In this document: piece after piece, positions 36,750 to 64,000 of the stretch | Layout: every line of letters begins with the position of its first letter | Position numbering within the stretch: position 1 is the stretch's first letter | Assembly: GCA_019925095.2 (NCBI GenBank) | Contig: CM034390.1 | Location: 3,025,501 to 3,089,500 of the forward strand | Source of the DNA: Dendrolimus kikuchii | Taxonomy: Eukaryota > Arthropoda > Insecta > Lepidoptera > Lasiocampidae | Reading direction: 5' to 3' | Length of the DNA: 64,000 nucleotides | The notes under the pieces: generated by a model | Database searches by the model: none | Seen by the model: the letters and a program-made list of their open reading frames with translations, nothing else | Told to the model about the DNA's origin: nothing | Program-made: the position numbers and the translations under genes

Positions 36750-38645
36750 TTACAACGATCTAAGTATTTGGAGGAGGTACGCGTGATCCATTTCGATCAC
36801 GAGTTGATCCCGGAGGGAGGGTTGTGTTGACTCTGACACTTGCCTCAGTTTCCGAGCCAAGAGTTGGACCTCTTGCAGGTCGAAGGGCAAGTTCTTGGCG
36901 AATTTAGTCGCCAAAGCTAAGTCCTCCGCTATAGAGTGGTGGGCCGATGGCCCTGAAGGTCCCTTAGAAATGGGGGCGAGGGCGGGGGCGGGGGTGGCCG
37001 AGGGTAGGCCGGCCATAACTGGGGCACGCGTCCTTAGCGGAGGGAACGCTTCCGTCGTGGGAAGACCCGTCCAGTGGTTTACCACTGGGGGGGGGGCCGC
37101 CACGAATGCGGGTTTGTTCGGCACTTTTCTAGTGCCTTTTTGGGCATTGCCCTTTCCGACCTTACGTTTGGGTCGGGGGGCGGCAGGGCAGCCTCTGTAG
37201 TTAGCGGGGTGACCCGCTTGGCCGCAGAGGATGCAGCTCGGTGGCTCCGGGGAGTCCCGGGTGCGAGTGCACTCCGAGGTCCCGTGGTCGCCCAGGCACT
37301 TGACGCACCTGGGACGGGATTGACAATGTAGGGCAGAGTGCCCATAAAGTTGGCAGCGATGACACTGCCGCAGTGTATGTTTTTCGTGTGGACGTTCCAC
37401 ACGAAGGCCAGAGAGGCCACAGACCTTCTCAAGATCGAAGATCTTTTTCCCCTCTGGGGAGAGGTCGAGGACAACCAATACTAGGTTTAGAGGGGACTTT
37501 GTGGCGTCGCCTCTGTGCATACGGTGCACTTCGTGCACTGGTAGGGCTTGGGACTTAAGGTCCTCTAGAATATAGGAACTTTCAATTTCCTGAGGAAGTC
37601 CGCGGATTACAGCCCGAAGGCGTTTTTCTTCTGGCAGGGCGTAAGTGTAGTAACCGATTTTACGGTCACATAATAAAGTAGTTAGGGCGCGGTGGTCACT
37701 TGAAGACGTGACCATAACTTTGATGCCGTGTTGAGTATCACGGGCTTCCTTTATGGAGATTGCCTTACCTGGCAGTTCTTTAGCGAGTTGAAGCCAATGG
37801 GCTTTCTCGCGGATGGTCAGGGGTGGCGGCGGGCGTTGTGAAGGTGGCCCAGGGCGGCTGGAAGGTGCCGCTGTCGGTGTTGTGCCCGCTGTTGGGGCGG
37901 GGTTGGGGGGGACCTCCCTCTGGGTCTTACGTTTTTTAGTACGATTAACGGTTATAAAACCGTCATCGTCTTCGCGGTCTAAGGGGATGTTCGCGGGAGG
38001 CGCGACATCCATAGGAGTAATTTCATCGGCCGGTGGAAGAGGGGCATCCCTGAGGTTTTGCGGACCTTCAGAGGATAAATCGATTTCTCGACGAGAATCG
38101 ATTACGCGATGGATGGGCGAACGTGAACGCGATGTCGTCGAACTCGCAGAGCTCGAACGCGGTTTTGTCGATGCGGAACCGCGAGAAAACGAGGCGCGCG
38201 ACTTTGGTGCCACACGATGGGCATCGTTGAGCGGGGGTGCGGGCGGCGGGCGCACTGGTAACGCGGCGGGTATGGATGCGGGGGGCGCGGGCGCTACGGC
38301 AGAGTGCAGGTGGACCGCGGTAAGCGCGGCGGCGGGGGTTGCGGGGCGTGCGCTAGTCGCGGCAGGTGCGATGGTCGCGGCAGATGCGGGTGCGGGGAGG
38401 GGGGCCTGCGCGGGGGCCCTTTGCACGTGTGACTCGCGGGACACAGGTTTCTCGGAATTAAGTTCCGAAATAACGGGCACCATTGATTGGGACTCCGGAG
38501 TCCTCAAAAATTGGTCGAGAGCTTGAGGGAATTGCTGTCGTAAAAACGACAGCAAACCCTCTAGCAACGATGGGGAGGGCTCCACGCCGTCCATTGTCCC
38601 TGAGGGGGACGAACGATTTGGTGGAAAAACCACCTGATGACGCAC
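36750..38645 (-). CDS. Gag-like ORF1 protein of a Jockey-type LINE
   Basis: 631-residue nucleic-acid-binding protein that would coat the element's RNA and help target the RNP to chromatin. Residues 60-290 are low-complexity, rich in Ala, Pro and Ser/Arg. About 330-420 is an RRM-like region of the kind preceding the knuckles in Jockey gags (RLRAVIRGLPQEIESSYI, LDLSPEGKKIFDL). Three zinc knuckles follow: CHRCQLYGHSALHC (428-441), CVKCLGDHGTSEC (447-459) and CILCGQAGHPANYRGC (471-486). The C-terminus is unremarkable. The start used is the first Met; a Met at residue 18 (MDGVEPS) is also plausible. The frame is intact although ORF2 of the same element is gutted, which could mean youth, trans-complementation or, less likely, retained function. 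GC content is far above the surroundings. Confidence 0.88.
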   Translation of the reverse strand: MRHQVVFPPNRSSPSGTMDGVEPSPSLLEGLLSFLRQQFPQALDQFLRTPESQSMVPVISELNSEKPVSRESHVQRAPAQAPLPAPASAATIAPAATSARPATPAAALTAVHLHSAVAPAPPASIPAALPVRPPPAPPLNDAHRVAPKSRASFSRGSASTKPRSSSASSTTSRSRSPIHRVIDSRREIDLSSEGPQNLRDAPLPPADEITPMDVAPPANIPLDREDDDGFITVNRTKKRKTQREVPPNPAPTAGTTPTAAPSSRPGPPSQRPPPPLTIREKAHWLQLAKELPGKAISIKEARDTQHGIKVMVTSSSDHRALTTLLCDRKIGYYTYALPEEKRLRAVIRGLPQEIESSYILEDLKSQALPVHEVHRMHRGDATKSPLNLVLVVLDLSPEGKKIFDLEKVCGLSGLRVERPHEKHTLRQCHRCQLYGHSALHCQSRPRCVKCLGDHGTSECTRTRDSPEPPSCILCGQAGHPANYRGCPAAPRPKRKVGKGNAQKGTRKVPNKPAFVAAPPPVVNHWTGLPTTEAFPPLRTRAPVMAGLPSATPAPALAPISKGPSGPSAHHSIAEDLALATKFAKNLPFDLQEVQLLARKLRQVSESTQPSLRDQLVIEMDHAYLLQILRSL

Positions 38646-45539: not shown

Positions 45540-48476
45540 TTATTTAGCGGACAAATAATGGTCAGTGATCAAGTGTTTGAATGTACCAATGGATGTAGCT
45601 TGTCTGATTTTCAAGGGAAGGGAGTTCCACAGGCGAACAGCCTGTACGGCAAAAGAGTTTCCTACAAAGGACGAAGTGTGTTTAGGTATCGTTAGCAGAA
45701 GATTTTCATTTGAGCGCAAATTACAGGAATGAGATTGATAGAGGAAACTAAAAAGTTCCTTTAAATATGGGGGAGTACAGGGATTGAAAAGGATATTGTG
45801 CAGAAGTGAGAGTAAGTGAACATTCCGGCGAAGGCGAATTGGCAACCATTTAAGCTTATTACGAAATTCGGAGATATGGTCATATTTACGCAACCCAAAT
45901 ATGAACCGGATACAAACATTTTGGAGGCGTTCAAGCTTATCTAGTTGTTCTTGGGTGATATCTAGATAGCAAGCATCAGCATAATCAATTAGAGGGAGAA
46001 GCAAGGATTGAGCAAGCATAACCTTAGTAGCAGTAGGTAGGAAATTCTTCAGTCTTCTTAGTGAAGCAGATGACGCGAAGAGTTTCCGACTGATTTCAGT
46101 CAGGTGAGGCCGCCAAGACAGTTCTCTGTCAATGATTATTCCTAAATTTTTAACAGTTTCACTGATTTCAATGTGCACACCATCAAACACAACATGGGGA
46201 AGCGAAGACCAGTCAATTTTGGAGACAAGCCTAGAGCTGCCGACAATAATAATCTTAGTTTTTTTCGGATTAACGCTCAGGCCATAGGCTTGGCTCCAGT
46301 TAACAATTTTTGTAAAGTCCCTATTTGTGGTTTGGATTGCTTCTGAAAGTCGGTTAAAATTACATTGAGTGTAGATTTGTAAATCATCTGCATAAAGGTG
46401 GTAAGACGAAGAAAGGTTATTGGAAATCGAGTTAATGAAGATAGCAAATAAGAGAGGTGATAAAACGCCGCCCTGTGGAACACCAGCAGACAAAGCACAC
46501 CACGACGAGTAAATATCATCTATGCAAATGCGCTGCCGGCGTCCAAACAGGTAAGTACGAAACCAGTCAATAACTGTTGGAGATATGTTAAGAGAACTCA
46601 AGATTCCAAGAAGGACATCAAAATCAACATTATTAAAAGCACTACTGAAGTCAAGCAGCGACAGTATAGTCAATAGACCATTTCCCATACCATGACGGAT
46701 ATCTTCAGTAATTTTAACTAGCGCAGTAGTGGTACTATAGCCTGGACGGAAACCGGATTGGAAAGGATTAATAAGGGAATTGGTGTTAAGGAAGACGCTG
46801 AGTTGCTTGTGCACAAGGCGCTCCAGAACTTTAGAGAGGAAAGGTAGAATGGAAATGGGACGATATTCGGAAAAGGAAGAGGGATTGGGTTTTTTTGGTA
46901 AAGGGATTACTTGGGCTTGCTTCCAGGAATCAGGAAATGTACCAGAAGATATGGAGGCATTAAAGATGTGGGTGATCACATGAATGATATCGTCTAATAT
47001 AGGAATGATCATATTGCGGCTAATACTGTCGCTGCCGACAGCATTAGAGCTGATAGACATTAAGCTCTTCTTAACATCACAATCAGAAAATTGACAGAAG
47101 TTGAAAGAAGGATATGTAGGAGTTGGCGTGTTAGAAAGTAAATTTATAGTTGCAGTTTTAGATTGCCTATCAAATTTGGCATTAGAGGAGAAGTGCTGAT
47201 TTAACAGGTCGAAGTTTAGATCTTTTGAAAGAGAATCCGAAGGTTTGCCAACTCCTAAAGATTTAAGAAACTTCCAAATTTTTGCAGGATCGTCAATTTC
47301 AAGAGATTTATGAATATAACGGCGTTGAGCGTCTCTACACACCCTATTGCAGAGATTACGAGTCTTGACGAATTTTATGCGGTTTGCATCTGTAGGCTTC
47401 ATTTTGTATTTGCTCCTAGCTACGCATTTTTTGTGCTGTAACGATTTTATTTCATCTGTCAGCCAGGGAGCAGGTAGATGTTTAATTTTTATAGCCTTTA
47501 CGGGTGCATGTAAATCATACAGCTTAATCAAAGCTGCATTAAATACATGCACCTTTACATCGACAGAAACTGCATTGTAGACATCGGACCAATCAATTTC
47601 ACGAGCATCCTTAATGAGATTGTCCATAACTATGCCACTAAAGTTACGCTGCATACGAATTTTAGGTTTAGTTTTAGGAGGGCGCATTTTATAAGAAACA
47701 AAGATCATGTCATGATACGAAAAGGCATCTGCTGAGCACTGACCATGTGTAGATACATAGGAAGGACAACTTACTAAAATCAGGTCGAGAAGAGAAGGAG
47801 TACAATTTGGAAAATGGTGAGTAGCAGATAATGGAAGAATAGAAAGATTAGAGGATTTAATGACATTTTCAAAATTAATTGAGCGAGAGTCACGCTTTAT
47901 GAGACATGTATTAAAGTCGCCCATAATAATTATATGTTCATATGTCACATTAAAATCAGCTAGTAGCTCTTCAAAGGTGGAGAAGAAATTTACTCTAAGG
48001 GAGGGGCTATAAAATACACCGAGAAGTAGACGCTTATGACCTAAGATTGCTTCAATAAATAAGCATTCCCCTGTATCAGGTGGAGATGGTTGAAGAGATG
48101 TTTTGACTACTCTATAAGGAATGTGTGAGCGGATGTAAATAGCTACACCTCCACCAGTGATACTAAGGCGATCATGGCGCACCAGTTCAAACCCTGGCAA
48201 ATTATAAGAGGAGGTAGGGAGACAAGGTTTAAACCATGTTTCGGACACCAAGATTGCATGTACATTCTGATTATTGAGCGATGCTTGCATATCAGTGAAA
48301 TGAACCGGAATGCTCTGCGCATTGATATGAACGATATTGAAATTTAGGGAAAAGTTAGACAGATGAGAATCTATTACTGCATGAAGTGAGGGAGCATCAT
48401 TAGAACCAAGACTATCGGAGCAAGAAAAATAATCATCTGAATCACTGTCATCACTGCTTAATTGTTGCATTACCAA
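45540..48476 (-). CDS. LINE ORF2: endonuclease-reverse transcriptase (CR1 group)
   Basis: 978-residue enzyme for target-primed reverse transcription: the endonuclease nicks the target and the RT copies the element RNA. Endonuclease (about 45-260): VHINAQSI (49-56), catalytic-site glutamate in SETW (E79), GDFN (186-189) and SYHD (253-256). Reverse transcriptase (about 510-770): EYRPISILPFLSKVLERL, FRPGYSTTTAL, motif A LLDFSSAF (D609), GVPQGGVLSP (665-674) and catalytic YADD (695-698). Motif A has AFN where AFD is usual, but the metal-binding aspartate is kept. No RNase H is seen. The C-terminus carries VRLWNSLPLKIRQATS, common to this group. An acidic Ser/Asp-rich N-terminus (residues 7-27) precedes the endonuclease. 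A second Met at residue 3 is also possible as start. Confidence 0.92.
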   Translation of the reverse strand: MVMQQLSSDDSDSDDYFSCSDSLGSNDAPSLHAVIDSHLSNFSLNFNIVHINAQSIPVHFTDMQASLNNQNVHAILVSETWFKPCLPTSSYNLPGFELVRHDRLSITGGGVAIYIRSHIPYRVVKTSLQPSPPDTGECLFIEAILGHKRLLLGVFYSPSLRVNFFSTFEELLADFNVTYEHIIIMGDFNTCLIKRDSRSINFENVIKSSNLSILPLSATHHFPNCTPSLLDLILVSCPSYVSTHGQCSADAFSYHDMIFVSYKMRPPKTKPKIRMQRNFSGIVMDNLIKDAREIDWSDVYNAVSVDVKVHVFNAALIKLYDLHAPVKAIKIKHLPAPWLTDEIKSLQHKKCVARSKYKMKPTDANRIKFVKTRNLCNRVCRDAQRRYIHKSLEIDDPAKIWKFLKSLGVGKPSDSLSKDLNFDLLNQHFSSNAKFDRQSKTATINLLSNTPTPTYPSFNFCQFSDCDVKKSLMSISSNAVGSDSISRNMIIPILDDIIHVITHIFNASISSGTFPDSWKQAQVIPLPKKPNPSSFSEYRPISILPFLSKVLERLVHKQLSVFLNTNSLINPFQSGFRPGYSTTTALVKITEDIRHGMGNGLLTILSLLDFSSAFNNVDFDVLLGILSSLNISPTVIDWFRTYLFGRRQRICIDDIYSSWCALSAGVPQGGVLSPLLFAIFINSISNNLSSSYHLYADDLQIYTQCNFNRLSEAIQTTNRDFTKIVNWSQAYGLSVNPKKTKIIIVGSSRLVSKIDWSSLPHVVFDGVHIEISETVKNLGIIIDRELSWRPHLTEISRKLFASSASLRRLKNFLPTATKVMLAQSLLLPLIDYADACYLDITQEQLDKLERLQNVCIRFIFGLRKYDHISEFRNKLKWLPIRLRRNVHLLSLLHNILFNPCTPPYLKELFSFLYQSHSCNLRSNENLLLTIPKHTSSFVGNSFAVQAVRLWNSLPLKIRQATSIGTFKHLITDHYLSAK

Positions 48477-49074: not shown

Positions 49075-49869
49075 CTATTTCTTAGCGGCCATACGACGAG
49101 TTGTAGGTTGCTGCTCCTTTGATGTAATAGAAGGCAAGGTGGGCATAGCAGTAGTCTGCGGGAGATTTATCTCACTTAAGTCCTCGATGCGGCTAATACT
49201 ATGTCGAGATCCATCTTGACCTACCACGTATATATTGCCGTCACGAGACCAGCACTTCGAAATGCCGAACTCTTGCCTCGCGCGCATGAACAGATCATGT
49301 CTGTGCTTTGTCAAGAACTCCGATAATGTTACGCCCGAACCTTTTAATTGCGTTTTTGCGGACCATATCTTGCTGCGAACAGCGACGTCAGACAACTTGA
49401 GCAAAATTGGGCGCGGCTTAGAAGAAGTGGACTTGCCTATCCTGTGGCAGCGGTTGATGTTATCCAATGAAAAATTACTGATTTTCAGTTTAGTGCAGAT
49501 AATATTCTTCACAAGAGCAGGGGCATCTTCTTGCTTTTCTTCAGGCACTCCATGCAGAAGTAATATTTTGCGTCTAGTACGCATCTCCAAATTGTCAATA
49601 GAACGTGACATTAGCATCATTTGATCCTGGAGAGACTTTAATGACTTCAAAATAAGGTTTTTGAAAGACAAGAATTCTGTACTCAATGTGGATATGTTGG
49701 TAGTTGGAGTTGCATTTCTCAGCTCACCTTCAAAGGCTTCCATTCGCTGCATGAAAACTGAGGATAGCTCAGCAAAGGCCTTTTGATTTGCGTCCATGAT
49801 ATCACACAGTGGGTTATAAGTGTTTCCGTGAAAGTGACAGAAATAATGTAGATTTATAGGAGATAACAC
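49075..49869 (-). CDS. LINE ORF1: RNA-binding protein with coiled coil
   Basis: 264 residues. Residues ~25-110 look like a coiled coil (heptad-rich, FLSFKNLILKSLKSLQDQMM, SRSIDNLEMRTRRK). Residues ~105-180 (ILLLHGVPEEKQEDAPALVK, then INRCHRIGK and RPILLKLSDVAVRSKIW) resemble the RRM-like fold of L1-type ORF1 proteins. Residues ~185-235 form a C-terminal domain (FLTKHRHDLFMRARQEFGIS, GNIYVVGQDGSRHSI). Such proteins trimerise and chaperone the element RNA. There are no zinc knuckles, unlike the Jockey and R1 gags here. A Met at residue 25 (MDANQ) is an alternative start, as the first 24 residues are hydrophobic/aromatic and may be untranslated. Confidence 0.85.
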   Translation of the reverse strand: MLSPINLHYFCHFHGNTYNPLCDIMDANQKAFAELSSVFMQRMEAFEGELRNATPTTNISTLSTEFLSFKNLILKSLKSLQDQMMLMSRSIDNLEMRTRRKILLLHGVPEEKQEDAPALVKNIICTKLKISNFSLDNINRCHRIGKSTSSKPRPILLKLSDVAVRSKIWSAKTQLKGSGVTLSEFLTKHRHDLFMRARQEFGISKCWSRDGNIYVVGQDGSRHSISRIEDLSEINLPQTTAMPTLPSITSKEQQPTTRRMAAKK

Positions 49870-54642: not shown

Positions 54643-54955
54643 TATTTTTTTATTGCAGGAGTTCAGTAGACAGGCGGACGGCCCACTTGATGGATAGTGG
54701 TTACCATTGCCTATGGACATTTGCAACACCAAAAGTGCTACAAATGCGCTGCTGCTCTCTTAAGGGAGACTAGAACCTGGTTACTAATGCCGGAACACAA
54801 CTCAAGGTTGTTATGTTGACATGCTTCAAACCAGGGGTGGTAATCATCCAGTCGGGCAAATGCCCTACCACCTGGCTGTGGGTTGTTTTGTCGCCTCTTA
54901 CGACAGGCCGCCGGGCTATAGGAAATTGTATTCTTTCTCCGTTCCTGCATGGATA
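54643..54955 (-). repeat. Family A LINE 3' end (copy 17)
   Basis: T-run, GCAGGAGTTCAGTAGACAGG to CCGTTCCTGCATGG. Confidence 0.8.
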
Positions 54956-55204
54956 AAATTATTTAGGAAGTAATAAGAAAATGATTACAATTCTTGGGTC
55001 TACGATCTATTTCGCCTGCGTGTCACTTTTAGTACGCATACTTCCAGAAACGAAGAAAATCGTCGAGCCATAAGTGCTCGTACTTGCTTGCAGATCTATC
55101 AATCGCTTTAAAGATAAAATACGTGTCATAAGCTTCAACCGCAAAAAATGTGATTGTCTTCTTACTCGTTAGTTAAAAAATACTTTAAGTTGAGGTTACT
55201 AAAC

Positions 55205-56549
55205 TTTATTCACCAACACAATAAACGCGAGTGAAATTGGTGCAACGTCCAGGGAGAAATCCCCAAAAAACGTGTGAAAAAAGTGTTTTAAGTGAAATAA
55301 CTTCCAAATTACATGCGCGACAACTGGATTTAAAACAGGCATCAGAAGCGCCTAGTGGCCCCCCACCGGGCTGCCAAGTCTGCCTTCCAAATTCCAGAAG
55401 TCCGCGAAGTTATCACCAAAAAAACAACTACCACGTGGTGACCTAAAACTCCATCAGTGCACCAACAACACCGTGTAACATATCATCAGACGCGCCTCAT
55501 CGAGGCCGTCACAGCGACACCTCAAGATCAAAGTTCGGACCACACCCCACCGAGTAAGCAGGAAAAAACCAGGATTTTAAAAATTCTGCGTTTTTCAAAC
55601 CTCCATAACTCCGTGGGAAGATCTGTAAGGTCCGAATTTTAAATCACCATCAACATCCCCCACCTGGGCTCTACACCACCAGCCAAAAATCCGGACTCCA
55701 GCGGTCAAAACCAGGCGACGGGAGCCAAAAAAACAACTTTCGTCGTCTGACCTACTTCCTCATTTTGCATCTCCGGGATCCAGTTTCAACGGGACGTCGG
55801 AGAGGCAACACCAGGGAGCACAACACCGCGGAGCACAGAATTTTAGGGTACATAGTTTTTAATTAATTTACTTTTTAAAATTTACTTTTAATTTTTATAT
55901 AACTCTCTCAATATAACAGTCGCGAGGCTGCGAAGCGGGCAGGCATCTGCGCGCTATCCTACTCTATATTACCATAAATTTTATTTTCAAAATTTTTGTG
56001 CCCGGGTGGCCCATAACACAAAAAAAACCAAAATTTTATTAAAAAATTCACAAAAAAAAAACTTTTCTATTATAACACACAATATTACACCAGAAAATCA
56101 CTTAAAAAACACCAAAATACTCCCGGCCAAATCGGCCCTATACTTTTCGACTTATCGCGTTTTGAAAACCAAGTTTGACGTTTAGGCGCCATCTTGAGAA
56201 AATTCAAAACTGCGATATCTCGCGAAGTATTGGTCCTACGGAGCTGGGGTTTGGACTGCTGACATCAGCGTCCCAAACCACACCGGATTCCGTGGTCAAT
56301 CCACACCCATACCCAAATTCTAACCAAATATTATCGCACCAGCAGCAAAAAATTCTCCGGACCCCCCAAGTTCGGATTCAAACAAATCGGGGTCTCCTGG
56401 ACGAGTAACTGGTGCACCCAACTCATAAAAATACCCAACTCTCTCACTCGTGGGACAGTTGGAAATTTTTTCTACACCTTAATAAGAGACATAAATCAAA
56501 AAACTTAGCCAAGACCGTTGCCAAGAGCCGGTCGACCCAATAACCCACT
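55205..56549 (+). promoter_or_regulatory. 5' untranslated leader of the R1-type LINE
   Basis: About 1.3 kb, C/A-rich (many CCCAAA/AAACC runs) and low in long frames, with several short upstream ATG frames (for example 55231-55446). By analogy it should contain the internal RNA polymerase II promoter and the leader. No specific motif can be claimed. Confidence 0.5.
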
Positions 56550-58616
56550 ATGTCGCAACCCAGCAGACCACACCCCTCCTCCCGCCCTACCCAGCCAGGC
56601 AAAGCCTCCTCGGCGAAATCTTTACGCAAGGAGGTGCTTACCCGCTCATCAATAGCGGTGTCGGCGGCGGGGTCGGCAACAAGTGAGGAGTCCTGCACCC
56701 AAAAAGGACCGACTGTGGAGGTCCTACAAAAGGTGCGGGAATGGTCTGCCGACGAACTCCCACCCCGGAAAATCACGTCTGAGGATGAAGACTCAGACGC
56801 GTCTACTGAAGGGGAATGTGCAGGCCGAGGTCGGCCAAGCATGATCCCCTTCATTTCTACCAGACGCAAGGGAGTTGAAATGGACGTTGCGACAAAATTA
56901 GCAAACGACATGCTCCTAAAGGCGAAAGAGGCCTTAGAAAAATCAGGGAATTTGAAGACGGAGATTAAACTAACTGTGATCGACTCTCTTCAAACCCTGT
57001 ATGACACTTGTCTCGCACTCTCGGACTCCAGATCTCGCCACAAATACAACCTGGAAAGGGAAAGGACACGCCATGCACAAGAGCTCGTAAGAGCTGAGCG
57101 TGCGCATACCGAAAGCGTGTCCAAATTAACAGCTTCCCTAACCAAAGAACTGCAGTCTGCAAGATCAGACATCAAAGCGAATCTGGAGTCGACGGAAGCA
57201 GTGCGGAGGTGGCTCGGTTACGAGACACAGGAGCCGTACGCCAAGATCTCCGCCTTGCTAGCGACCTCACAGGCGATGGAGAAGCGCCTCAACACTTTAC
57301 ACACCTCCCTCGCTGACATACCGCGAACAACCGAAGGTAAGCGGTCCAACAAAGAGCTGGAGAAACTCCAAACAGGAGTGGACAATTTATCCAGACAGCT
57401 GGACTCGCTGCGTAGGGAGATCACTACCATCAAGACCTCCACAGAATCAACTGCGGAGGACACAAAAAAGGCCCTCTCCACACTGGTCTCTAGCGAGGAT
57501 AAGGCGACGGCGGCCGCCGCACTCAAAGAGACGCAAGCAACAACCAAAAGCCAAAAAATTTTACAAGAGTCCATAAACGACCTGGCAACACAGGTCCGCC
57601 AAATAAAAACAGCACACGCAAACACACCACCCCCTCCACCAATAGAGCTGGGAGAACATCTCCAACCCATAACGGAGAGTCTAGAGGCAGTCAAGTCCGA
57701 CATTAGGACCCTAAAAGAGAACCTGCAACACCAACAGCAGGCCCCGCCGGCAACTAGCCTGGCGGAAGAACTCTCTTCCTCTGGCCAATCCAAGGTCGCC
57801 TCATACGCGGAGGTCGCGGCAAAGAAAAAACCCGTCCTAAAACCCAACCATACCCTCATCATCTCCTCGCCGGATCCATTAAAGACCGGCGAAAAGGTGA
57901 TAGAGGAGATCCGACTAGCTTTGGACCCAAGAAAAACTGGGGCAAAGGTTGATAGGATCAGGACGGGCAAAAACCAAAAGGTTATTCTTAGCTGCGGCAC
58001 AAAAGAGGACCTAAAACTGGTGGAAGACAGGGTGAAAAATCACTCAAAACTAAAGGCGGAGATCGCAAAAACGAGCCTCCCCCTAGTCATTGTCAAGGAC
58101 GTGATGGCCTACCACACCGACAAAGAGATAGAGGAGCAACTAGCGGTGCAAAATGCGCACCTGCTGAAAATCCTATCACCCAAAGCCATCCACATCCGAG
58201 TCCGTTCGCGGAAAAAGACCCGCAACCCACTCCAGTGTCACGTGATACTGGAAGTGTCAGCCCCAGTCCATAAGCGGTTCACAGAGGAAGGACACCTCTA
58301 CATAGGGATCCAACGGAGACCAGTAGAGGACCAGTCCCCTCTGGTGCAATGCGCCAAATGCCTGGGATATGGACACACTAGAGCGCACTGCCAGGAAGCG
58401 CAATCCTTCTGCAGTCACTGCGGAGGAAAGCACACCTGGGAGGAGTGCAACCGGCGCAAGGACGGCGTTAAGCCGGCATGCAGGAATTGCAAGATGGCCG
58501 GAGATAAAAATCCGGACACCCTGCCCCAGCATGCTCATAATGCCTACAGCCCGGATTGCCCCGAGCGCCACAAGTGGGATGCTATAGCGAGGACTAAGAT
58601 CAACTACAGTTGTTAA
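56550..58616 (+). CDS. Gag-like ORF1 protein of the R1-type LINE
   Basis: 688-residue RNA-binding structural protein. Residues 1-100 are Ser/Pro-rich and low complexity. About 110-400 are charged and helical with heptad-like patterns (KYNLERERTRHAQELVRAER, LDSLRREITTIKTS), probably coiled coil. About 435-590 is a globular region with an RRM-like look (NHTLIISSPDPLKTG, KNQKVILSCGTKEDLKLV). Three Cys/His knuckles follow: CAKCLGYGHTRAHC (601-614), CSHCGGKHTWEEC (621-633) and a longer third starting CRNC (644) with H and C to about 670. This knuckle series is standard for R1-clade gags. The start is the first Met after an in-frame gap, MSQPSRPH. The frame ends at TAA 58614-58616 and overlaps the open ORF2 frame by 29 bases. 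Confidence 0.9.
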   Translation: MSQPSRPHPSSRPTQPGKASSAKSLRKEVLTRSSIAVSAAGSATSEESCTQKGPTVEVLQKVREWSADELPPRKITSEDEDSDASTEGECAGRGRPSMIPFISTRRKGVEMDVATKLANDMLLKAKEALEKSGNLKTEIKLTVIDSLQTLYDTCLALSDSRSRHKYNLERERTRHAQELVRAERAHTESVSKLTASLTKELQSARSDIKANLESTEAVRRWLGYETQEPYAKISALLATSQAMEKRLNTLHTSLADIPRTTEGKRSNKELEKLQTGVDNLSRQLDSLRREITTIKTSTESTAEDTKKALSTLVSSEDKATAAAALKETQATTKSQKILQESINDLATQVRQIKTAHANTPPPPPIELGEHLQPITESLEAVKSDIRTLKENLQHQQQAPPATSLAEELSSSGQSKVASYAEVAAKKKPVLKPNHTLIISSPDPLKTGEKVIEEIRLALDPRKTGAKVDRIRTGKNQKVILSCGTKEDLKLVEDRVKNHSKLKAEIAKTSLPLVIVKDVMAYHTDKEIEEQLAVQNAHLLKILSPKAIHIRVRSRKKTRNPLQCHVILEVSAPVHKRFTEEGHLYIGIQRRPVEDQSPLVQCAKCLGYGHTRAHCQEAQSFCSHCGGKHTWEECNRRKDGVKPACRNCKMAGDKNPDTLPQHAHNAYSPDCPERHKWDAIARTKINYSC

Positions 58617-61600
58617 GGGCACCTCAACAGACCCCAGCACGCCTGAGGGTGGACGGAGAAAGCACAATCTGCGCTTCGTACAAGCGAACTTACAGCGCTC
58701 CAAAACTGCAACCCAGGAGCTCCTGCATGAAGCGAACGAGAGAGGTATCGACGTTGCACTAGTCCAAGAGCCCTATGTAGGCAGGACTGGATGCATGTCT
58801 CAATACCCGGGCACTAAAATCATCCAGTGCACTCTCGATCGCAAAAAACCAGTCAAGGCCGCAGTCATGGTCTTTCGCGACTACCTGGAGGTAATACATG
58901 ACCCCCAGCTGGTAACGGAGACCGAGGCAGCGGTAAAGCTGGTTGCAGGCAACTTGCAGATTGGCGTAATCTCAGTCTACTTCGAGGGCAATAACGATAT
59001 TGAAACCAATATCAGGTCTGCATCAACAATTATAGCTGGTCTTAAGACAAATAACATCATACTGGGGGGAGACGTCAATGCTTGGAGCTACTGGTGGGGC
59101 AGCAATACTGAAGACCACCGCGGCCGGGATTGCGTTGCCTTTTTAAATGACAGAGGCCTCCATATTCTCAACGAGGGTGATACACCAACCTTTGAAGTCT
59201 GCAGGAATGATCGGCTATGCACTAGCATAGTCGACATCACCACATGCAGCACGTCCCTGCTGGACCGAATGGATGCCTGGAGAGTGGACCGAGGATTCAC
59301 CTCGTCGGACCACAATGCGATCACATTCAGTCTGCGCCTAGATGCTGAGCTTGAACCATTAAGCTCGACAACAACGCGTAGATTCAATGTGTCGCATGCC
59401 GACTGGGGGGAATTCGAGACACAATTCGGCATCCAATTATCAGGGACGGGCATGGACAAAGCGTCCATAGAAGGAATCACCTCTCCTGGGGAGCTGGAGT
59501 CCTCTGTCAGTGCCTACTTGCAAGTAATTTACACAGCGTGCGAGAACACCAGCACAATCAAAAAAGTGGGCACCTATCAGGGCAAGCTAAAACCGCCGTG
59601 GTGGACAGATACTCTGCAGCACAAAAAGGCAGAGGTCCTCCGAACTAAACGGAGGATAAGAAACGCTGCACCCCATAGGAAGCATGCGGTCTACCTTGAG
59701 TACAAAAACACTAAAGAAGACTATGGCCAAGCTGTAATGGAGGCCCAAACAAGGAGCTGGAAAGAGTTCTGCACAACCCAAGAAAAAGAAAGTATGTGGG
59801 ACGGAATCTACAGAGTGATCAGGAGAACGACCAGAAGACAGGACGACATGCTTCTTAGAGGCGCCGACGGGAAAACCCTAGACCCGGAGGAGTCGTCCAA
59901 ACTTCTTGCAAACACGTTTTATCCTGATGACTCAGTAGAATCGGACACGCCGTCACACACACTACTCAGAGAGTTAGTCGAAAATAAGACCCAGCAGGAG
60001 GCACATCTTTCACCAGACGATCCACCCTTCCAGGAAGCAGAACTGGACTCAGTGCTACAAACACAGAGTCCAAAGAAAGCTCCAGGACCGGATGGATTAA
60101 CGTCAGATATATGCGCCCGGGCGATAAAAACTGACGGGGGAGTCTTCCTAGCGATAGCGAATAAATGCTTGTCGCTCAGCTACTTCCCCAAGCAGTGGAA
60201 AATCGCTCACGTTATCATCCTGCGTAAGCCTGGGAAAGAGGACTACACACACCCTAAGTCCTACAGGCCCATAGGCTTACTCTCTGTTCTTGGAAAAACA
60301 GTGGAGAAACTCTTAGTGGGGCGCATACAATACCACATTTACCCCACGCTCCACACCAAACAGTTTGGCTTCATGCCGCAGCGCGGAACCGAGGACGCCC
60401 TCTGTAGCCTCTTAAACCATGTAAGATCTGAAATTGAATCAAAACGGATCGTGATCATGGTTTCTTTGGATATAGAGGGTGCTTTCGATAACGCATGGTG
60501 GCCGGCGCTAAAACATCAGCTCATCGTCAGAAGGTGTCCGAAAAATTTGTTTGACATGGTGAACTCCTACCTACAAGACCGGAAAATCTTGGTCAACTAT
60601 GCCAGAGCAGTCAGTGAGAGGTCCACAACCAAAGGTTGCGTCCAAGGATCCATCGGTGGACCAACTTTTTGGAATATCATCCTGGACCCACTACTGCACA
60701 AACTTACTGGCATGGGAGTTCACTGTCAAGCATTTGCGGACGACGTGGTTCTCACCTTCTCCGATACTACGGTCCAGGCCATGGAAATCTTCATCAATTC
60801 GGCCCTGGACACGGTGACGGAATGGGGAAGTCAAAACAAGCTAAACTTCGCAGCTCACAAAACCAACGTGATGCTCCTAACGAAGAAGCTTAAGTACGAC
60901 CAACCAAACCTAACCATGTCCGGGAACAGGCTAAGTCTAGTCTCCGAGATGAAAATCCTTGGCCTAAACATCGACCGAAACCTCTCCTTTATACCGCATG
61001 TGGCGGCTGTTTGTAAAAAGTCTGCGAACATATACAAGCAGCTGGCGTGCGCGGCAAAGGTGACATGGGGCCTCAACGGAGAAATAGTGAGAACAATATA
61101 CGTCGCGGTCATAGAGCCCATCGTAATGTACGCTGCAAGTGCGTGGTATCAGGCGACAAAGCTCCAAACGGTTCGTAACCGTCTGGGAGCACTCCAAAGA
61201 TGCTTCGCACAAAAAATCTGCAAGGCGTACAGAACGACATCGCTCACCTCGGTGACAGTCCTCTCAGGGACCCTACCGCTGGACCTCAAAATCCGGGAAT
61301 CCGCACTACTCTATCAAGCCAAGAAAGGCAAACTAACAGACTTTCTACCACAAGAAGGTAAACTGGAGACCAGGGTGAATCACCTCGACTTACCTCACCC
61401 TGCAGAACTCACAAAAACTGAGTTCGAGCTCCTGGAGAACCTTGACTCTGAAACCATAGAATCCCACAATCTCGCCGGCCCGTATATATATACGGACGGC
61501 AGCAAAATAGAGGGCAAAGTAGGAGCGGCCCTCACCTGGTGGGATCAGGATAAGGAGACAAGTAACTCCACCTTCAGTCTGCACCCCTTCTGCACTGTGT

Positions 61601-64000
61601 TCCAGTCGGAACTTTATGCACTCCTCAGGGCGGTGAATATGGCAAAAGATAGCAGCGAGTTGGAAATTAACATCATGAGCGACTCAAGATCTTCGCTCGA
61701 GCTGCTATCTAACCCAAAACCATATCACCCCCTAGCGAAGTCAATCCAAGAGGGCATAAAGAAAATCAATGCGGAAGGGAGGAGAGTGCGCTTATTCTGG
61801 ATCAGAGCCCATACGGGAACAGCTGGAAACGAGCGAGCCGACGAACTGGCTAAGCAGGCGGCGCTGGAGAGAAAGGATGCCCCCGACTATGACGAGCTAC
61901 CCATTTCCTACGTCAAGAAAAAGATCAGAGAGGAGTCTGTCCGCCTATGGCAGGACAGATATGACTCCTCCAGTACCGGGTCAGTGACTAAAACCTTCTT
62001 CCCTAACGTAGCCACAGCGTACCGCGTGGTGAGGAAGGAAAAACTGACCCATTTACAAGTACAGATCTTGACGGGACATGGCGCCATGGCGGAATATTTA
62101 CATCGGTTCAAGCTGAAAAGCAGTCCCGAATGTGAATGTGACCCCAATGTCAACGAGTCGGTGTGGCACATTGTTCTCGAGTGCCCACGTTTCTCGGCAA
62201 AGAGAATGGACTGCGAATCCCAAATTGGTGAGCCACTCACCAAGGATTCGTTGCACACCATCCTGGCAAACACCGAGGCAAGACCACACCTATTGGCGTT
62301 TTTCGACCACCTTATGGCTATAGTCTTCAACAGAAATAGCACATTACATAAACAAGTCATAACAGAGACCACACACACACAAGAAGACCCCCCTCAGTCA
62401 CAATCATCTACCCCACCACCCCCACCGGCGTTGCGCAGACTAAATCTGCAATACCATGGTGAGGAGGGAACACCGGGCATACGACTGAGAGGGGTAACAT
62501 TATTTATGGACTCCAATAAAGAAAAGATAGGCATTGCCTTCTGCGAAGCCCACGGCCGTAAAAACGTCACCATCTCACCGGGACTGGCAAGCCTCATAAA
62601 GGGCAGCACTACCAGAAACATCATGCGCCGCCGCGACTACGACTCGCTAGCGCAAGCGCAAATAGCCGGCATAGATTGTCGAATAGCGAGAGAGAGGGGG
62701 AAGGAGATCCTGCTATTCGACAAAGGCAATAACATCAGCCAATTTCTAAAAGCCAGGCAAGTGCTGACCGAACTATGGGGAGCTAGTACCGGTAGCCTGC
62801 ACACCCCGAGGAGAATCAGCTTGGATACCATGGTGGTCGGTTACGAAAGGGGACAGGTCAGTGACTACTGGGGAGCCGTACTGGCTTCCGAGTATCACGA
62901 GATAGTGGTTTACGAAAACAGGGGTGGAAACCTCAGTTTTCTTAAACCGTACCAGCCTGGCTCTGACGTACTCAACCCAATCGACCACAGAGGCCGTCAA
63001 CTACCACAAGAGGACGGGCTAAGTGGATCCGAGCGTCTCCAAAAGGAACTTGAGGCAGGATGGCAAGAAGCCAAGCAGAAGCCTTTAAAGCCTATCTCAA
63101 ACATAACTGCCTTAGTTTTCACGGAGCTGGCCACCAGGTCAGCCCTAAATGAGCCAACAACATCGGCTATAAGCATCTCAACTTTAAAAAACATAACGGT
63201 AGGAGATCCTCTCCTATCGAAAAGCATAACCAAACAACAAACTCTAACCCCACCCGTGAGGGAACCACCAAAGGCAAGATTAAAAGCCGATATGGGGATA
63301 GTGGAACCTCCAATCTTACTCACTCCAATGAAACCGAGTGACCATTGGGCAAACGCCTTCATCGAGTTTTTAGCAGTCTGTAGAGCAAACATCATCCTCA
63401 ACAAAAAGGTGGGCCAGTCCATCTTGGACACCTATAAGTTGGGAATCGACAGACTGCTTAAAACCAAACTTGAGACCGCAGAGGCAGCCGTGTACGACAA
63501 CGCCACCTCCACCGTGCTAGCGGGGGAGATGTCGGGGGAATACATGGCAGCCTACAACGCCACAGGCGGTCTGGTCATTTTGGACGAGGAGGAGAGGAAG
63601 AAAGGAGAGGAAGGGAAACTACGCTTCCTAACCCCCCCAGAGGATCCAGTGGTAGTGGTGATGAAGTCCACAAGGATAATGCTAGACGACAGAATCCTGG
63701 AAAAAGCTAAAACTTTGACCGAGGAATCTGCCGGAGGCAAACCCTTCGACGAATGGACCGTCCCCGACATCACCTGGATTAACGGCGTCCCGGGCTGCGG
63801 TAAAACAACAGCGATGCTCCGTGGCTTCAACACCAGCGAAGACACGGTCATCACAGCCACCAAGAAATCCGCAGAAGAAATACGGGAAAAGCTCCAACCC
63901 ATCCTAGGCGACGATGCCAAGGCCCGAGTGCGGACTATGGCCTCTTTCATAGTCAACGGGCTCACATCCACCTTTAGCCCGAAACGTCTCATCGTAGACG
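58588..64000 (+). CDS. ORF2: endonuclease, reverse transcriptase, RNase H, zinc finger and viral-type helicase (3' partial)
   Basis: One frame open from 58588 (after TAG at 58585) to the last base: 1804 codons, no stop. Residues count from 58588. Endonuclease 28-250: FVQANLQRS, VQEPY (E61), GGDVNAW (D162), SSDHN (D241, H242). Reverse transcriptase ~480-780: KKAPGPDGL, motif A SLDIEGAFD (D628), GCVQGSIGGPTFWN, motif C FADD (D718). RNase H ~965-1095 with all four acids: YTDGS (D970), QSELYAL (E1008), MSDSRSS (D1032), ERADELAKQA (D1085). Finger CEC-x9-H-x4-C 1182-1199. Residues ~1230-1725 unassigned. Superfamily 1 helicase begins ~1730: Walker A GVPGCGKTT (K1739); LIVD precedes the last base g, which fits the Glu of motif II. 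Replicates the element; the helicase may unwind RNA or counter silencing (inference). First AUG is 58795, inside the endonuclease. Confidence 0.92.

Follow-up and report, generated by a model that had tools for sequence, protein, structure and literature searches.

A recently active LINE of Dendrolimus kikuchii whose ORF2 probably ends in a block derived from an RNA-virus replicase

In the genome of the lepidopteran Dendrolimus kikuchii (assembly GCA_019925095.2), we analyzed a stretch of 64,000 nucleotides (contig CM034390.1, positions 3,025,501 to 3,089,500; hereafter the window) that contains most of a long interspersed nuclear element (LINE), which extends from about 55213 to 65406 and is followed by a run of A. 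The element is intact and recently active, and it has multiplied into many recent copies. Our overall reading, which we consider probable, is that it is an R1/TRAS-type LINE with ~744 virus-derived residues at the end of its second open reading frame (ORF2), a block taken once from a virga/martelli-like replicase and perhaps serving in cis as an ATP-driven motor. The R1/TRAS placement is taken from published papers, and the reverse transcriptase (RT) identities measured here are to species that those papers name. An earlier sequence-only reading had recognized a LINE ORF2 with an alphavirus-like superfamily 1 (SF1) helicase, of a class already known from Lazareva and colleagues 2015; both points were borne out, the second by PMC4686597 (papers with PMC numbers are represented here by excerpts).

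The ORF2 frame is open for 1804 codons from 58588 to the window end at 64000, as had been stated. Past this border, in the same genome (705 Mb in 49 contigs, searched for the continuation and for copies), it runs on for 229 codons to a stop at 64687-64689, giving 2033 codons without an early stop or frameshift. The Walker A motif GVPGCGKTT, previously placed near residue 1739, lies at residues 1733-1741, and the LIVD at the window end had been proposed as the start of motif II. DEA, GDINQMP, TIHEAQG and SRHT, which we take to be motifs II, III, V and VI, occur in this order before the stop, and SF1 motifs I, II, III, V and VI were all found in the ORF2 helicase. Pfam matched Exo_endo_phos_2 (2e-18), RVT_1 (4e-36) and RNase_H (9e-14) in the window part. 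Because the window ends inside the helicase domain, the start of Viral_helicase1 scored 17.4 bits there (E 0.004), below the cut-off of 21; the completed helicase reached 122.2 bits with PF01443 against the same curated cut-off. Endonuclease, RT, RNase H, zinc finger and C-terminal SF1 helicase share one frame, the finger falling under the Pfam cut-off and being recognized by conservation among relatives. ORF2 has no ATG ahead of its endonuclease domain (58588-58795) and overlaps ORF1 by 29 bases in a different frame, so its translation would need reinitiation, frameshifting or a non-ATG start.

At least 94 PF01443 matches were found in the genome. Among those listed, 27 scored 122.1-122.2 bits, and ten had the 2033-codon frame, on nine contigs. 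Six of these ten, the window copy among them, were 99.89-99.97% identical over 6.0-8.6 kb and 99.06-99.38% identical over the last 1.9 kb, in agreement with the earlier view of an intact, recently active copy. When these six were compared at both ends, two started at 55213 and four were 5'-truncated ahead of ORF2; copy L017 on contig C27 starts at the base matching 55213 and is 99.97% identical onward. At the 3' end the six copies have 4 to 15 consecutive A, and no target-site duplication was recognized in them; within 200-240 bases of sequence spanning the junctions, the longest common word was 10 bases and lay away from the junctions. The 3' flanks vary between copies; a matching 3' untranslated region was present at 37 of 44 loci, shortened at some, and 7 had no 3' match. 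This recent burst, with at least two subfamilies in one genome, is new here. Nothing speaks for an assembly artefact that fused a LINE with inserted viral sequence near 62.4-63.7 kb, one of the events that could have undone the sequence-only reading, and it can be dismissed with near certainty: the frame is equally long in the ten copies on nine contigs, near-identical copies lie elsewhere in the genome, and endonuclease, RT, RNase H and helicase occur together on one protein in 42 of 52 database relatives.

Among 20 copies with an exact end (L010, L012, L016, L018 and others), the 3' run was 14-15 A in 10 and 0-32 A in the rest. The same genome holds other helicase-LINE lineages (L059-L065, L045, L046, L048), one at a helicase synonymous divergence (dS) of ~0.8, and lineages among them have 3' untranslated regions only 67% alike. 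A dispersed repeat, identified by eye, flanks the insertion on both sides in opposite orientation (approximately 54645-54958, and 3640-3700 of L002); the same repeat, 88-90% alike, adjoins the insertions in L011 and L020.

The C-terminal part of ORF2 is akin to viral replicases. With the helicase of P0001 and the domain preceding its core (preHel) as query, we retrieved 97 proteins, 42 of which (P0059-P0100) were classed as viral by name or domains, P0080 on the helicase alone. Of the viral proteins found, P0059 lies closest to the LINE helicases; it is a 3147-residue virga/martelli-like replicase from a single 10.9-kb contig, in which errors are possible. It carries Vmethyltransf, FtsJ and RdRP_2 without an RT match, marking it as a virus-type replicase, and its modules run in the order of the LINE: domX (residues 1526-1693), preHel (1928-2073) and helicase (2088-2351). 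A LINE-derived domX profile matched P0059 at 71.5 bits (E 2.6e-14 scaled to 5.77 billion proteins), against 3.4 and 4.3 bits for reversed and shuffled controls. Pairwise identity between the window block and P0059 is 25% for domX, 45% for preHel plus helicase and 42% for the tail, over the 50 residues that precede the LINE stop (E 7e-5). Between the window ORF2 and P0059, the best match in the region ahead of domX had E 3.8. The LINE-derived preHel profile reached i-E < 1e-3 in 20 of the 42 viral proteins (E scaled to 42 sequences; P0059, 8e-32), with partial matches in P0076 and P0078 and just 23 positions in P0100. The best BFVD match was Atrato virga-like virus 1, with 523 columns aligned (ranges not specified).

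The excerpt of PMC4686597 describes, ahead of the helicase, more than 300 spacer residues that have no relatives. The viral stretch looks longer than this description, with two further folded domains; the reading of the pre-helicase stretch as two virus-derived domains and a viral relative with the whole block are new here. The extra C-terminal helicase of the sequence-only reading is present, but it looks like part of a ~744-residue replicase block, not a helicase added after a spacer. The tobamovirus-like source proposed with it did not hold, as the nearest of the 42 viral proteins are virga/martelli-like and the sole nameable tobamovirus, P0096, lies far off. The excerpt of PMC5563155 raises the idea of a helicase adjoined by a zinc finger, as in Upf1; this does not fit the present element, where the two are separated by ~530 residues that include domX and preHel.

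Nine LINEs and the virus have in common the domX residues I-S-P-G, S-x-D-x-M and Y-x-x-R. By fold comparison domX may be weakly macrodomain-like. Macrodomains carry ADP-ribose-loop residues, namely Asn-Ala-Ala-Asn and a Gly triplet. A macrodomain identity by sequence found no support: none of 10 domX members matched Macro in Pfam at E<=10, a PDB profile search gave no match to solved macrodomains, and the loop residues were not seen by eye in alignment A3 (10 sequences). That, within a three-module piece of viral replicase, domX is a diverged macrodomain still binding or removing ADP-ribose, or binding RNA, so that a viral counter-defence module and a complete, regulated helicase would both be used against host control of transposition, appears unlikely. 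No report of a macrodomain in a LINE, or of a longer viral block, was found in the literature searched, outside which most subscription papers lie.

Purifying selection acts on the block. Between the young subfamily and seven older copies of the same genome (L001, L006-L008 and L068, the last of different length, were left out), helicase dS was 0.77-0.84 and nonsynonymous divergence (dN) 0.067-0.079. Against the older copy L069, whose block frame is open, dN/dS was 0.10 for domX, 0.18 for the linker, 0.11 for preHel, 0.09 for the helicase and 0.07 for the tail. Walker A, DE and GD.NQ.P are conserved in 47 of 47 relatives and the SRH/TRH motif in 45 of 46, in a set found via similarity to the helicase region, which favors conserved members. 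Alignments A1 and A2 hold 47 of the 52 LINE proteins (P0024, P0026, P0029, P0049 and P0050 were left out); 22 of the 52 have a species name, all of moths or butterflies. Within the older subfamily dN/dS was 0.28-0.73 (21 pairs of 7 copies), as for copies decaying after insertion. This faster drift would be expected with the element's own transposition as the target of selection, and the selection itself is seen between lineages of a multiplying element; both argue against the hypothesis published in PMC6338049 (excerpt) that the domain is kept as a service to the insect host against RNA viruses, which we regard as very improbable.

We built a helicase tree (61 rows; 19 of 58 LINE sequences with the 42 viral proteins) and a preHel plus helicase tree (36 rows; 18 LINE sequences with 18 of the 42). 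P0059 joins the LINEs at 100/100 in both, and the LINEs form one clade, at 91/72 in the helicase tree and 93/94 in the other. In the helicase tree the LINEs and P0059 together nest among virga/martelli-like viruses at 100/93 and 97/93. The simplest reading of these trees would be a single capture from a relative of P0059, and we infer that the transfer ran from virus to LINE.

Several results weigh against our overall reading. LINE monophyly is not starred at either value, so that P0059 lying within the LINE clade stays compatible with the trees, and domX was detected by sequence in only 1 of 42 viral proteins. The linker dN/dS is itself low and dS against L069 approaches saturation in three modules, domX, linker and tail (1.4-2.1), which makes the contrast between modules modest. 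Hhalign of domX against the 700 residues upstream of preHel in 15 viruses (groups of 7 and 8) gave probabilities of 0.4% and 0.3%, the second run (8 viruses) aligning columns 23-165 where domX would be expected, which is no more than a hint. In three other LINEs, P0001 (E 0.2), P0003 and P0011 (0.001), the tail matches P0059 less well. Published assays, in the excerpts of PMC4686597 and PMC5563155, favor silencing suppression. Two further searches were negative: domX in IMG/VR gave 95 pattern matches and 0 relatives, and P0059 residues 1510-2080 found only themselves among 7984 scored candidates, a weak negative in which the LINEs were missed too. The confinement of domX, by sequence, to LINEs and P0059, and the unstarred LINE monophyly, would also suit the reverse transfer, in which the P0059 lineage took the block from a LINE. 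This is improbable to our minds, given that preHel and helicase co-occur in other replicases (20 of 42), that LINEs and P0059 nest within viruses, and that a branch separates the LINEs from all other sequences in 93 and 94% of 200 bootstrap trees.

In the virus-to-LINE reading, a LINE ancestor would have acquired the block from 62455 to the stop at 64689 once, from the replicase of a P0059-related plus-strand RNA virus, and would have preserved the viral order of domX, linker, preHel, SF1 core and tail. Kept in cis on the LINE ribonucleoprotein alongside RT, such a motor may bind the element's own RNA and use ATP to strip structure, duplexes or bound proteins, letting reverse transcription proceed. 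The biochemical activity and the step of action are predictions from sequence, and this remodeling of the LINE's own RNA, although the most likely mechanism in our estimate, falls somewhat short of an even chance.

Its main rival is that the block acts in trans as an RNA-silencing suppressor, binding or unwinding duplex RNA and blunting control by small interfering or PIWI-interacting RNAs. According to the excerpts, Lazareva et al. 2015 complemented a suppressor-deficient plant virus (PMC4686597) and Morozov et al. 2017 found weak but detectable suppression (PMC5563155); retention of more replicase than the bare core also speaks for it. However, the 2015 authors call their own assay no unequivocal demonstration, the strictly kept ATPase motifs are not needed for duplex binding alone, and 49 of 52 relatives have RVT_1 within the same protein, a count in which the search admitted only proteins of ~990-3155 residues and hid short unfused ones. 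We consider suppression in trans a rather unlikely, if serious, alternative.

Viral sequence that a LINE has taken up and that selection maintains in Lepidoptera amounts to a natural experiment in which properties benefit a retrotransposon. Should the block be a complete replicase module, tests confined to the helicase domain covered only part of it; the sister virus offers a donor lineage for comparison, and domX a separate testable activity.

Table 1. Features of the helicase-bearing LINE, in window coordinates
Feature	Position	Strand	Remarks
5' untranslated region	55213..56549	+	First base of element 55213, shared by C27 copy L017
ORF1, 688 residues	56550..58616	+	Three Cys/His zinc knuckles near C-terminus, by eye
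ORF2, window part	58588..64000	+	Frame continues to stop 64687-64689
Endonuclease	58666..59322	+	PF14529 2e-18, residues 127-245; start set by similarity to P0001
Reverse transcriptase	60232..60969	+	PF00078 4.3e-36; FADD at 60733
RNase H	61486..61863	+	PF00075 8.6e-14
Cys/His finger, zf-RVT-like	62041..62187	+	PF13966 E 0.1 (below cut-off); Cys/His columns kept in relatives
domX, conserved alpha/beta domain	62455..62961	+	Common with viral replicase P0059; possible weak macrodomain-like fold
Low-conservation linker	62962..63270	+	Identity 0.26 among relatives (39 of the 47 aligned proteins, >1850 residues; domain borders set by hand); predicted local distance difference test score (pLDDT) mostly <65
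preHel	63271..63774	+	Counterpart: tomato mosaic virus helicase N-terminal domain
SF1 helicase core, window part	63778..64000	+	Continues to 64536; Walker A 63784-63810; motif II starts 63988

ORF1 matched no Pfam family above cut-off. On the opposite strand, the window holds a second LINE with a 978-residue endonuclease-RT protein (45540-48476; PF00078 1.7e-36, PF03372); upstream on that strand, a 264-residue frame (49075-49869, minus strand) without a Pfam match may be its ORF1. A 631-residue ORF1-type protein with PRE_C2HC (8.5e-14) and zinc knuckles occupies 36750-38645 (minus strand), a GC-rich stretch (51% vs about 38%) with no adjoining RT frame of at least 200 residues.

Helicase-bearing (SF1H) LINEs have been described in many lepidopteran families (Lazareva et al. 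2015, PMC4686597; Morozov et al. 2017, PMC5563155), with copies in Spodoptera cells (PMC5803895). The D. kikuchii element belongs to the same class of SF1H TRAS/R1 LINEs, sharing the order endonuclease, RT, RNase H, zinc finger, long stretch and C-terminal SF1 helicase, and its RT is 69.8-71.7% identical to relatives in Ostrinia, Plutella, Amyelois and Plodia. Its copies likewise lie outside (TTAGG)n, near which, by the excerpt of PMC6338049, SF1H copies cannot be found. TRAS1/SART1-type telomeric LINEs share the R1-clade layout, again with placement from papers. In contrast, TRAS3 has no helicase according to the excerpt of PMC4686597, and telomeric TRAS elements insert in (TTAGG)n (PMC6338049), a trait rejected here as 0 of 37 3' flanks held two or more TTAGG/CCTAA units in the next 120 nucleotides. 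Virga/martelli-like replicases (P0059, Atrato virga-like viruses 1-4, Xiangshan martelli-like virus 3) share preHel and helicase, and P0059 also domX in the same order; P0059 differs in carrying methyltransferase, FtsJ and RNA-dependent RNA polymerase domains and no RT. In fold, preHel corresponds to the domain at the N-terminus of the tomato mosaic virus helicase (PDB 3vkw, 3wrx, 3wry), a helicase that differs in sequence (25% identity) and in belonging to a replicase rather than to a protein with RT. A viral SF1 helicase also occurs in Jockey LINEs of Hemiptera and Orthoptera, but there it lies in ORF1 of another LINE clade and, according to the excerpt of PMC5563155, was gained independently.
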